Of a DNA stretch of 64,000 bases, positions 2,722 to 54,597 are shown in pieces. The stretch is from Mucilaginibacter frigoritolerans (GTDB lineage Bacteria; Bacteroidota; Bacteroidia; Sphingobacteriales; Sphingobacteriaceae): contig NZ_VLLI01000004.1 of assembly GCF_007830615.1 (NCBI RefSeq), positions 62,001 to 126,000 on the forward strand, read 5' to 3'. The notes under the pieces were generated by a model. The model worked only from the letters and a program-made list of their open reading frames with translations, was not told where the DNA came from and searched no databases. The position numbers and the translations under genes were made by a program. How positions within the stretch are numbered: the stretch's first letter is position 1; each line of letters begins with the position of its first letter.

Positions 2722-3252
2722 ATGAAAAAAACAATCTTGATTTTGTGTTTAATAACGCTTGTTGGAGTTGCAACTAAAGCTCAATCAACTTCAATTAATT
2801 CTTTTATTGCTGATGATCAGGGGATTTTGATAAACTCCATTGCGCCGGATATTGTTTTGCCTGGAATTAATGGCTATGATATTGACGCCAATAAGTCGAA
2901 CTATAAATATCTGCTGGTTAACTTTTGGGCAAGCTGGGATAGGGCATCAAGAAAACAGAATCCTTATTTTATTAAAGCGTTAGATAAATTTCAGAGCCAG
3001 GGTTTTGGTATCATGTCAGTATCAGTCGACTCAAATGTTGATTTTTGGCAACAAGCCATAAAAGAGGATGGAACATCCGGATTTTTGCACTTGATAGACC
3101 GCGATGGATTGAAAAGCGTATACCTGAAAGAGTTTAAAGTGGATTTTATACCAGCCAATTTTTTAATTGACAACACAGGGAAGGTCATTGCCAAAAACCT
3201 GCGCAAAAATGAGCTTTATAAGCTACTGGCTACCCTACTGCCCGATCATTAA
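2722..3252 (+). CDS. Secreted thioredoxin-fold (TlpA/AhpC-TSA-like) protein without CxxC
   Basis: An N-terminal signal peptide (MKKTILILCLITLVGVATKAQ) is followed by a TlpA-like thioredoxin fold of about 155 residues: APDIVLPGINGYDI, then LLVNFWASW, and later the cis-proline region VDFIPANFLIDNTGKVIAKNLR. The position of the WCxxC active site reads WDRAS (Asp73 and Ser76 in place of cysteines), so it cannot act as a dithiol oxidoreductase. The start at 2722 gives a clean signal peptide; an in-frame GTG at 2710 is less likely. The stop codon overlaps the convergent oxyR stop by three bases. A binding or structural role in the periplasm is inferred. Confidence 0.8.
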   Translation: MKKTILILCLITLVGVATKAQSTSINSFIADDQGILINSIAPDIVLPGINGYDIDANKSNYKYLLVNFWASWDRASRKQNPYFIKALDKFQSQGFGIMSVSVDSNVDFWQQAIKEDGTSGFLHLIDRDGLKSVYLKEFKVDFIPANFLIDNTGKVIAKNLRKNELYKLLATLLPDH

Positions 3253-4184
3253 ATATCCATCACCTCTTTCTTTTTCTTGGTTTTCATCCGTTTAGGCAAA
3301 AAATCGAGGATTTCATTTTTTAGGGCTTCAATCATCCTGCGTTTTAAAAAATTCCGTTGTATCACTATACTAACCTCTCTTGCAGGTTCCGGCGATTTAA
3401 AGTAACGCACTTTATCCAGTTGTTTATCGGTCAGATCGGTTAGTGCCAGTTCGGGTAAAATAGTAGCACCGTTATTTTGGTCAACCATGCGTTTAAGGGT
3501 TTCAACACTGCCTGTATTGTATTCAAAATGTTTAAAACCCTGGGTAGACTTACGGCGTTGGCAAATATTCAGCACCTGTTCGCGCATGCAATGCCCTTCA
3601 TTTAATATCCATATCTCTTCCATATCAATATCATCTGGACTGATGGTTTTCTTTTTGGATAGATTGCTGTTTTTAGATACATAAGCCACAAAGTTTTCAT
3701 AAAAAACAGGTAGCTCGGTAAGGTTGCTTTCATGAAGCGGGGTTGAAAGTATGCCACAATCTATCATCCCCAGTTTTAGTTCATGAATTATTTGCTCAGT
3801 AGTCTGCTCCCAAACAACCAGTTTTACCTGTGGGTATTTTTCAATAAAGCCATGCAGTATTTTTGGTAAAATGTAAGGCGCAATGGTTGGGATAATGCCC
3901 ACTTTCAATTCGCCCGACAATTCTTTTTTCCTGTCGGTGATGATCTCTTTAATTTTTTCGCTTTCTGATAACAGTATCCGCGCCTGCGTAATAATCTCTG
4001 TGCCTATTTCTGTTGGGGTTACCGGTTGTTTACTACGGTCAAATAATTTAACACCAAGAGTGTCTTCAAGCTTTTGTACTTGCATACTTAATGTAGGCTG
4101 GGTAACAAAACACTTTTCGGCGGCCAATACAAAACTGCGGTAAGTATCAACTGCAACAATATATTCAAGCTGGGTAATAGTCAT
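3249..4184 (-). CDS. oxyR: LysR-family peroxide regulator OxyR
   Basis: With the start at the ATG at 4184 (not an upstream in-frame ATG at 4220) the 311-residue product begins MTITQLEYIVAVDTYRSF, an OxyR-type N-terminus with a winged helix-turn-helix at about residues 17-60 (SFVLAAEKCFVTQPTLSMQVQKLE). The two redox-sensing cysteines are in GHCMREQVLNIC at residues 199 and 208, which are exactly the numbers in Escherichia coli OxyR. OxyR forms an intramolecular disulfide with hydrogen peroxide and then activates target promoters. It is divergent from a catalase gene and shares its upstream region, the classic arrangement. Basic residues at the C-terminus (KRMKTKKKKE) form an unusual tail. Confidence 0.95.
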   Translation of the reverse strand: MTITQLEYIVAVDTYRSFVLAAEKCFVTQPTLSMQVQKLEDTLGVKLFDRSKQPVTPTEIGTEIITQARILLSESEKIKEIITDRKKELSGELKVGIIPTIAPYILPKILHGFIEKYPQVKLVVWEQTTEQIIHELKLGMIDCGILSTPLHESNLTELPVFYENFVAYVSKNSNLSKKKTISPDDIDMEEIWILNEGHCMREQVLNICQRRKSTQGFKHFEYNTGSVETLKRMVDQNNGATILPELALTDLTDKQLDKVRYFKSPEPAREVSIVIQRNFLKRRMIEALKNEILDFLPKRMKTKKKKEVMDI

Positions 4185-4495
4185 GATAGTGAAATTTAGA
4201 ATTTTAGTAGCCGGGGACAAAGATTCAACAATCGGGGGCAGGAATAAAGCAATATAAAATAAACGATTATTTATGACAAAAAATCAACAGATTATACTGT
4301 TTTTATAGTCAATTCGTTTAAGTTTTTTATTACCTTGGCTTATACCTGCTGGCTCCAGATTCTGCCAAATTGATTTTTTATTACGAGCCTTGATTTAATG
4401 TCCCTAATATAGTTTTTATCTATTCAAATATAGTAATTATTGATTTTTTCTATTGATTTATTATTCTGAAGTTTGAATTAAACTAAAAAACCTAT
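4185..4495. promoter_or_regulatory. oxyR-catalase divergent control region
   Basis: This 311-bp AT-rich stretch separates the two divergent start codons. It carries the OxyR-like element listed at 4409-4444 and, at 4468-4475, GAAGTTTG, a 7-of-8 match to the phylum's -7 element TAnnTTTG. Nearer to oxyR, at 4290-4309, an imperfect CTAT-N7-GTAT type motif is visible on the minus strand, but it is too weak to call. No small gene is evident. Confidence 0.6.
4409..4444. promoter_or_regulatory. OxyR-like operator upstream of catalase
   Basis: Bases 4409-4423 read ATAGTTTTTATCTAT, a perfect match to the OxyR half-site ATAGnTnnnAnCTAT defined in enterobacteria. Six bases later a degenerate second half (ATAGTAATTATTGAT, 4430-4444) follows, so the element resembles the tandem tetramer site with 6 instead of 7 spacer bases. 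The perfect half ends 44 bp before the -7-like GAAGTTTG at 4468. The adjacent regulator is an OxyR with both cysteines. A matching element with nearly the same spacing precedes ahpC at 53303. Confidence 0.65.
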
Positions 4496-5995
4496 ATGGA
4501 AACAAATAAAAAGAAGCTGACTACGGCATCAGGCATACCGTATGCAGAGAATGAAAACTCCATGACTGTTGGTCCTCGCGGTCCGATATTACTACAGGAT
4601 TTTATCCTGCACGAAAAGATGGCACACTTTAACCGTGAACGCATTCCGGAACGCGTTGTTCATGCTAAAGGATCGGGTGCTTATGGTACATTTACGGTTA
4701 CACATGATATTTCTAAATATACACGTGCCAAATTGTTTAATACTATAGGTAAGGAAACAAAAACTTTTCTTCGCTTTTCTACCGTAGGTGGTGAAAAAGG
4801 ATCTGCTGATACTGAGCGCGATCCACGCGGCTTTGCACTGAAGTTTTACACTGAAGAAGGTAACTGGGATTTGGTAGGTAACAATACACCGGTATTTTTT
4901 ATAAAAGATCCGAAAAAATTTGGTGATTTTATCCATACCCAAAAGCGTGATCCCTATACCAATTGCAAAAGTGCAACCATGATGTGGGATTTCTGGTCGT
5001 TAAATCCGGAAAGCTTGCACCAGGTAACTATCCTGATGTCGGATAGAGGTACCCCTTATGGTTACCGCCACATGGATGGGTTTGGTAGCCACACCTTCTC
5101 AATGATCAATGCCAATAATGAGCGTCATTGGGTGAAATTCCACTTTAAAACCGAACAGGGAATTAAAAACTTTACCGATGAAGAGGCCGGAGCAATGCGT
5201 GGCACCAATCCTGATTTCGCTCAGCACGACCTCTTAACCCACATTGATAAAGGTGATTTTCCAAAATGGAAATTGAAAATACAGGTAATGACCGAAGAGC
5301 AGGCAAAAACCTATAAATGGAATCCATTTGATTTAACCAAAGTTTGGCCCCATGCCGATTTTCCTTTAATTGATGTAGGTGTATTGGAACTAAACCAAAA
5401 CCCTGATAATTATTTTGCCCACGTTGAACAATCTGCATTTGCACCTGCACATGTGGTTGATGGGGTTGGTTATTCACCTGATAAAATGTTACAAGGCCGT
5501 TTATTGTCTTATCCGGATGCTCATCGTCATCGTTTGGGTGGTAATTATGAGCAGATTCCGGTAAACAGGTGCCCGTTTGCTGTAAATAACTACCAGCGCG
5601 ATGGACAAATGCGTGTTGATGGCAACCATGGCTCAGGACCCAACTATTTCCCTAATAGCTTTGATGATATTGTGGCCGACGAAAGCTACAAAGAACCAGC
5701 CTGGGATTTAGGAACAGGCCTTGCTGACTGGTATGACCGTAATGCCGAAGGAGAAAATGATCATTACACTCAACCTGGTAACCTGTACCGTTTAATGACG
5801 GAAGAAGCTAAATATGATCTGGTGAAAAATATTGTTCACTCCATGAGTGGTATTGATGGCCCTAAAAAAGAGCTGATTACAAACAGGCAACTTTGCCACT
5901 GGTTCAGGGCTGATATTGGCTTGGGCATGGCTATTGCAAAAGGCTTGCAGGTAGATATGGATGAAGCCATGAAAAATATGGCTGTACATGCCTGA
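4496..5995 (+). CDS. katA: Monofunctional haem catalase (small subunit type)
   Basis: The 499-residue product has the complete catalase core. The distal His56 is in RVVHAKGSGAYG, the Asn129-Asn130 pair in DLVGNNTPVFF, and the haem-ligand Tyr339 in RLLSYPDAHRHRLG. The length fits the small-subunit (clade 3) class, with no flavodoxin-like C-terminal domain. It has no signal peptide, so it acts in the cytoplasm, dismuting hydrogen peroxide to water and oxygen. Divergent oxyR and the OxyR-like box at 4409 indicate peroxide induction. A strong hairpin terminator follows at 6029. The symbol katA is by class and context. Confidence 0.97.
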   Translation: METNKKKLTTASGIPYAENENSMTVGPRGPILLQDFILHEKMAHFNRERIPERVVHAKGSGAYGTFTVTHDISKYTRAKLFNTIGKETKTFLRFSTVGGEKGSADTERDPRGFALKFYTEEGNWDLVGNNTPVFFIKDPKKFGDFIHTQKRDPYTNCKSATMMWDFWSLNPESLHQVTILMSDRGTPYGYRHMDGFGSHTFSMINANNERHWVKFHFKTEQGIKNFTDEEAGAMRGTNPDFAQHDLLTHIDKGDFPKWKLKIQVMTEEQAKTYKWNPFDLTKVWPHADFPLIDVGVLELNQNPDNYFAHVEQSAFAPAHVVDGVGYSPDKMLQGRLLSYPDAHRHRLGGNYEQIPVNRCPFAVNNYQRDGQMRVDGNHGSGPNYFPNSFDDIVADESYKEPAWDLGTGLADWYDRNAEGENDHYTQPGNLYRLMTEEAKYDLVKNIVHSMSGIDGPKKELITNRQLCHWFRADIGLGMAIAKGLQVDMDEAMKNMAVHA

Positions 5996-53302: not shown

Positions 53303-53346
53303 ATAGATTTTAACTATAAGCTATCGATTCTTTATATATGATAGCT
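53303..53346. promoter_or_regulatory. OxyR-like operator before ahpC
   Basis: ATAGATTTTAACTAT (53303-53317) is a perfect match to the half-site ATAGnTnnnAnCTAT. AGCTATC (53319-53325) and GATAGCT (53340-53346) form a further inverted pair just downstream. The perfect half ends 43 bp before the -7 element TATATTTG at 53361, almost the same as at catalase (44 bp). Confidence 0.65.
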
Positions 53347-53360
53347 GTTTTAAAAAGTGG

Positions 53361-53368
53361 TATATTTG
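53361..53368 (+). promoter_or_regulatory. -7 element of ahpC
   Basis: TATATTTG is a full match to TAnnTTTG, 27 bp before the ATG at 53396. A good -33 element is not visible 19-21 bases upstream, which suits a promoter that depends on an activator. Confidence 0.65.
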
Positions 53369-53395: not shown

Positions 53396-53941
53396 ATGTT
53401 AACTATAGGACAAAAATTCCCTGACTTTTCTAAAACCGCGGTAGTAAGTATCGAAAAAGGTAAAGAGTTTGAAACCATCACTTCTGAGTTTCTTGTAAAC
53501 GATGAAAACGTGTGGACAGTAATGTTCTGGTGGCCAAAAGACTTTACTTTTGTTTGCCCTACAGAGATCGCTGAATTCAACAAAAGCTACGGCGAATTCC
53601 GTGACCGTGATACCCGTTTAATTGGAGCTTCAACTGATACTGAATTTGTTCACGCTGCATGGAGAAGAGATCACGCTGATTTACGTGACCTTAAATTTCC
53701 AATGCTTGCTGATACTTCAAAATCATTAGCGGAAGATTTAGGCATATTAGAGCCAAATGAAAAAATTGCTTACCGTGCTACTTTCATCATCGATCCTACC
53801 GGTATCATCCGTTGGGTATCTGTTAATGATTTAAGCGTAGGCCGTAACGTAAAAGAAGTTTTACGCGTACTTGACGGTTTGCAAACTGACGAACTTTGCC
53901 CTTGCAACTGGGTTAAAGGTGAAGAAACTATAACTGTTTAA
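53396..53941 (+). CDS. ahpC: AhpC-type peroxiredoxin (AhpD-dependent class)
   Basis: The 181-residue protein has the peroxidatic Cys54 in DFTFVCPTE and a C-terminal CPC motif (Cys168 and Cys170 in ELCPCNWVKG). The CxC pair is known from Mycobacterium-type AhpC, which is reduced by AhpD instead of AhpF. It detoxifies hydroperoxides. ahpD follows after 71 bases, with a hairpin between. The OxyR-like box and -7 element at 53303-53368 point to peroxide induction. Confidence 0.96.
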   Translation: MLTIGQKFPDFSKTAVVSIEKGKEFETITSEFLVNDENVWTVMFWWPKDFTFVCPTEIAEFNKSYGEFRDRDTRLIGASTDTEFVHAAWRRDHADLRDLKFPMLADTSKSLAEDLGILEPNEKIAYRATFIIDPTGIIRWVSVNDLSVGRNVKEVLRVLDGLQTDELCPCNWVKGEETITV

Positions 53942-54012: not shown

Positions 54013-54597
54013 ATGAATGAATCTACCGAATTAGTAATCGAGATATTACAAGGCCTAGGCGTTGATCCCGCATACCGTAACAGCAGTTTAAACTTACTTG
54101 AAAAAGGCGAATCACGCTATTTACGTGACTTAAAACTTAATTTTACCAGCACACTTACTTCTGAGCATTTAAGTACAAAAGAATGTGCATTGCTTGGCTT
54201 ATCAACTGCCATCAATAATAACAATACCATTTTAACGGACTATTTTACCCGTTATGCTGAAGAGCAGGGTGCTACTGCCGCTGAAACAGGCGAAGCTGCT
54301 GGTTGTGCCTCATTGCTGGCATCAAACAATGTGTTTTATCGTTTCCGTCACTTTACCCAAAAGGAAAAGTACACGCAAATACCTGCACGTATCCGCATGC
54401 AGTTAATGATGAAACCGGTAACGGGTAAAGAATTTTTTGAATTGATGAGTTTGGCCATTTCAGCAGTAAACGGCTGTGAAATGTGTGTAAACGCTCACGA
54501 AGATTCCTTAATTAAATTAGGAACTACCGAAGAACGTATTTTTGATGCAGTAAGAATTGCATCATTGGTAACCTCTTTTGGTAAAGTGATATTCTAA
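54013..54597 (+). CDS. ahpD: AhpD-type alkylhydroperoxidase
   Basis: The 194-residue all-helical protein has the AhpD active motif NGCEMCVNAHED with Cys155, Cys158 and His162. AhpD-like proteins carry peroxidase activity of their own and reduce AhpC; the adjacent AhpC has the matching CxC tail. It follows ahpC and its transcript may be partly attenuated by the hairpin at 53961. A long hairpin (54604) lies past its stop codon. Confidence 0.95.
   Translation: MNESTELVIEILQGLGVDPAYRNSSLNLLEKGESRYLRDLKLNFTSTLTSEHLSTKECALLGLSTAINNNNTILTDYFTRYAEEQGATAAETGEAAGCASLLASNNVFYRFRHFTQKEKYTQIPARIRMQLMMKPVTGKEFFELMSLAISAVNGCEMCVNAHEDSLIKLGTTEERIFDAVRIASLVTSFGKVIF

Follow-up and report, generated by a model that had tools for sequence, protein, structure and literature searches.

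Predicted tandem OxyR operators upstream of katA and ahpC in Mucilaginibacter frigoritolerans and their conservation in the Bacteroidota

Peroxide genes and their putative operators

The divergent oxyR-katA locus of M. frigoritolerans raises the question of whether a short palindromic core preceding its catalase gene, and recurring before an ahpC gene, is part of an OxyR operator in this Bacteroidota lineage, and whether such a core suffices to predict a regulon. In the window (the whole 64-kb stretch of DNA analyzed, searched on both strands), exactly two exact matches to ATAGnTnnnAnCTAT were identified, one between the divergent oxyR and katA genes (ATAGTTTTTATCTAT) and one 78 bp upstream of ahpC (ATAGATTTTAACTAT), both agreeing with the consensus at 10/10 positions. 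Dinucleotide shuffles of the window contained a mean of 0.08 matches and none of the 100 shuffles contained two, in agreement with the sequence-only reading, which had placed both perfect cores upstream of peroxide genes and had put the chance expectation at well under one per 64 kb. Its distances from the end of box 1 to the -7 element, 44 bp at katA and 43 bp at ahpC, were reproduced upon re-measurement. The features of the oxyR-katA locus were as follows:

3249..4184, minus strand: oxyR, LysR-type regulator; start at Met13 of the 323-aa ORF 3249-4220
4409..4423, plus strand: box 1 (IR1) of the predicted oxyR-katA operator; 10/10 consensus positions
4430..4444, plus strand: box 2 (IR2), ATAGTAATTATTGAT; 7/10 positions, starting at +21 from box 1
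4439..4453, plus strand: box 3 (IR3), ATTGATTTTTTCTAT; 8/10 positions, starting at +30 and overlapping box 2
4468..4475, plus strand: katA -7-like element, GAAGTTTG; 44 bp past box 1
4496..5995, plus strand: katA, monofunctional haem catalase; Pfam Catalase, 654 bits

The katA -7 element reads GAnnTTTG and so departs from the perfect TAnnTTTG. The features of the ahpC locus were:

53303..53317, plus strand: box 1 of the predicted ahpC operator; 10/10 consensus positions
53323..53337, plus strand: box 2, ATCGATTCTTTATAT; 7/10 positions, starting at +20
53361..53368, plus strand: ahpC -7 element, TATATTTG; 43 bp past box 1
53396..53941, plus strand: ahpC-like peroxiredoxin; Pfam AhpC-TSA, top NCBIfam model AhpC, under its cut-off
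54013..54597, plus strand: ahpD-like alkylhydroperoxidase; NCBIfam ahpD_dom above cut-off, Pfam CMD

The ahpD-like gene is probably co-transcribed with ahpC, as the intergenic gap is 71 bp.

The OxyR protein

The regulator encoded in the window was 34% identical to E. coli OxyR across 294 aa, matched both Pfam HTH_1 and LysR_substrate above their cut-offs, and carried a DNA-binding helix region closely resembling that of E. coli OxyR (QPTLSxQxxKLED). Its top NCBIfam model was PRK11151 OxyR at 229.8 bits compared to a curated cut-off of 329, a value calibrated on proteins closely related to E. coli OxyR. Counting from the homologous start Met13, cysteines were located at exactly 199 and 208 and this pair was kept in 40/40 Bacteroidota orthologues checked, confirming the earlier assignment of Cys199 and Cys208.

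Geometry of the operators

Both window sites open a tandem operator in which box 1 is followed by a weaker second box at +21 (katA/oxyR) or +20 (ahpC), in phase and on the same face of the DNA, one or two bases under the period of 22 in E. coli. A second box at +21 was enriched in oxyR-linked sites (z 8.5) and upstream of ahpC (z 5.2) in other genera, and at +20 upstream of ahpC within the genus (z 8.6) and of katG (z 9.0), where all box z values were calculated against within-sequence shuffles of non-redundant footprints and ignore shared ancestry. A third box overlapping the second was detected at +30 in oxyR-linked sites (z 8.7), with a weaker counterpart at +29 upstream of katG (z 5.4); the same offset-enrichment analysis showed no third box at ahpC.

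Conservation in relatives

The sequence-only reading had also pointed to the catalase and ahpC upstream regions of relatives, and the sites proved to be conserved in both. Among 80 named Mucilaginibacter oxyR loci, katA was the divergent neighbor at 54, with a box of at most one mismatch upstream of katA in 43 of these 54. Where found, the box was mostly situated 85-94 bp upstream of the katA start and was followed by a strongly conserved CAAATATAGTAATTATTGATTTTTTCTATTGAA, and a -7 element lay 44 bp past box 1 in 35 of the 36 relatives having one (none was found in nine more). For ahpC, a box with at most one mismatch was identified in 18/30 upstream regions of the genus, mostly 90-95 bp before the start, with the -7 element 42-43 bp past box 1 in 17/18 genus relatives. 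The core was present at the same stringency in 33 of 46 ahpC upstream regions from family and phylum samples (including a few from Mucilaginibacter), in 17/30 katG upstream regions, and in 18 of 40 oxyR upstream regions from other genera and families; a close box was absent from the remaining 22 of these 40, Bacteroidales-like regions among them. The corresponding frequencies in shuffled DNA were 2.5-3.7% for the katA and ahpC upstream regions and 2.4% for katG. The operator is conserved within the genus, family-wide at ahpC, and phylum-wide at many oxyR genes.

The length of the oxyR-katA intergenic region was variable. Where the gap is short, the box in many species directly adjoins the oxyR start codon. 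In the relatives L016, L028, L038, L039, and L058, an extra 120-200 bp of DNA separates oxyR from the operator; it is composed of inverted repeats (CAAGAATCAAGA...TCTTGATTCTTG type) and may represent a dispersed palindromic element. The corresponding gap in the window (4187-4408) is comparably long and shows no clear repeats.

Genome-wide prediction of targets

The core had been suggested as a means to predict the whole regulon, including dps, and this suggestion was not supported. In the 5.66-Mb genome, the exact core gave 15 matches compared to 11 for a reversed-pattern control, and with one mismatch 332 compared to 318. The 15-bp core alone is no regulon predictor because these counts barely exceed the control, and the core-only scan was rejected for this use; regulon prediction must not rely on the short core by itself. 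Of the 13 exact copies outside the window, most lay inside ORFs. As the core is not rare genome-wide, the window sites are distinguished by position and conservation rather than by rarity. No operator was found in the ferritin and dps regions, although weaker sites at dps could escape the model.

What does serve as a predictor is the longer operator with two boxes, which marked only katA and ahpC in this genome and also katG in relatives. A matrix of both boxes, trained on sites from other genera, ranked the katA site first (31.3 bits) and the ahpC site second (21.6 bits) in the window; its best scores on 30 random sequences of 64 kb had a mean of 12.3, and one of them reached 27.5. A second model (R1) was built from 49 sites of relatives, with the window's own sites left out and no katG site included. 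Across the whole genome, R1 ranked the window sites first and second (E 9e-4 and 2.4e-3), a rank that is not fully independent as the training set held close orthologues of both. The third match (E 0.07) was inside an ORF, as were most lower ones, which were dismissed as chance; C8:34774 and C14:96340 (<13 bits) lie between ORFs without a recognized peroxide gene downstream and were likewise attributed to chance.

In 60-61 genomes, mostly of relatives, 45 of the 48 R1 matches at E<0.01 were located at oxyR/katA, ahpC, or katG (by coordinate tally 16, 16, and 13, respectively, with three elsewhere). The recovery of katG operators by the katG-free R1 in at least 13 relatives is a stronger test of the model than the genome rank of the window sites. 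A two-box operator upstream of katG was present in many Mucilaginibacter species (L269, L271, L272, L274-L277, L279-L286); katG itself is absent from the genome of the window, so its strong-site regulon comprises katA and ahpC(D). One of the matches elsewhere (L273) was rejected since it lies inside a methyltransferase-like ORF, and another (L278) was ambiguous. In L270, a full two-box site (868-902) is intergenic, 157 bp upstream of a gene for a thiamine-diphosphate enzyme resembling pyruvate oxidase/dehydrogenase; this site may be real and an extra OxyR target. These data provide a computationally tested operator model, with katA, ahpC, and katG as targets, for peroxide defense across a large section of the Bacteroidota that has received little study.

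Regulator of the sites and proposed mechanism

The sites 4409-4423 and 53303-53317 are very probably OxyR operators; they are conserved in relatives and have a core in common with E. coli. Chance matches in AT-rich intergenic DNA would be consistent with the missing genome-wide enrichment of the core, but this interpretation is very improbable and was refuted by the orthologous sites, which dozens of species and other genera keep at a fixed position with the second box in phase. Binding by a different LysR-type regulator encoded in the genome, in place of the OxyR encoded at 3249-4184, was also considered, as the genome contains at least seven LysR-type matches to the OxyR protein and the general palindromic form is common to LysR-type sites. 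However, the site is conserved beside oxyR across the phylum, its ATAG-n7-CTAT pattern matches the published OxyR core (PMC5002191), the sites mark peroxide genes only, and the paralogues are approximately 25-33% identical with varied contexts, making such a regulator an unlikely occupant. PerR/Fur-type boxes have a minimal probability: katA and ahpC are under PerR in other bacteria and the PerR box is also a 15-bp AT-rich palindrome, but its sequence TTATAATNATTATAA (PMC3953959) is without the G4 and C12 conserved in these sites, and a tandem arrangement of boxes repeating every 20-21 bp suits a LysR-type tetramer.

It is highly likely that both tandem sites are operators of OxyR 3249-4184 and represent ordinary control by OxyR in the Bacteroidota, the spacer being shorter by one or two bases. 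Sequence, spacing, conservation, target association, and the cysteines were observed directly; the disulfide switch, the occupancy by a tetramer, activation, and the repression of oxyR by its own product are proposed by analogy with E. coli. Each operator would consist of tandem dimer sites: the upstream box is strong, and the second, weaker one starts 20-21 bp further on and ends approximately 23 bp upstream of the -7 element. Cys199 and Cys208 would be oxidized by peroxide to a disulfide, and the oxidized OxyR tetramer would fill boxes 1 and 2 and recruit RNA polymerase to katA and to ahpC (with ahpD). At oxyR-katA, box 3 (4439-4453) is proposed as a candidate site for reduced OxyR across the expected -33 region, its function being assigned after PMC5002191; reduced OxyR on boxes 1 and 3, the latter also lying over box 2, would keep katA off. 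OxyR on the oxyR-proximal box 1 may repress oxyR, and ahpC, lacking box 3, would be controlled by oxidized OxyR alone. As the switch is conserved across a large bacterial group, this extends a known system in a way that is well supported yet largely to be expected. A complete three-box redox-switch operator common to the Gammaproteobacteria and Bacteroidota, with box 3 at oxyR-linked promoters and not at ahpC such that its presence could show the redox state of the controlling OxyR, is a more tentative proposal and somewhat doubtful. Should the third box have the role put forward for it in E. coli, the redox switch of OxyR, together with its DNA geometry, would be an ancient mechanism held in common.

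Comparison with known systems

The OxyR operator of E. coli oxyR-oxyS (Toledano 1994, as cited in PMC5002191) has the published ATAG-n7-CTAT core, and footprinting-by-conservation assigned to oxyS three inverted repeats, of which IR1 and IR2 serve activation by the induced regulator and IR1 and IR3 are used without inducer (PMC5002191). In this analysis, the E. coli oxyS boxes were placed at 0, +22, and +31. The operators share with oxyR-oxyS the core and the placement of tandem boxes on a single face of the DNA, and the oxyR-katA operator also shares a position divergent from oxyR and a third box that overlaps the second at the same 9-bp step. They differ in the period between boxes 1 and 2 (20-21 compared to 22 bp) and in box 1, which lies closer to the consensus than do the E. 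coli sites checked. The earlier suggestion that an enterobacterial motif was retained therefore stood for the shared core, although the label "enterobacterial" is misleading given the weaker fit of the E. coli promoters and the longer oxyS period. R1 gave no detection on the E. coli oxyS, ahpC, and katG regions, indicating that the operators of the Bacteroidota and of E. coli, though related, cannot be exchanged for one another at the sequence level.

OxyR is a peroxide-responsive activator in Bacteroides, Porphyromonas, Tannerella, and Prevotella (PMC8115020; PMC7999485), and the system described here resembles these as a peroxide-responsive activator in the Bacteroidota. That role is already known, and what is new is modest, namely the geometry of the complete operator and the list of targets; a literature search found no earlier account of this operator anatomy in the Bacteroidota, which is weak evidence as key older work was outside its reach. 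The divergent target also differs, being a catalase in the window and the small RNA oxyS in E. coli. In some Bacteroidota (L176, L228), ahpC instead of catalase is divergent from oxyR, and in L176 a one-mismatch box sits between the two genes.
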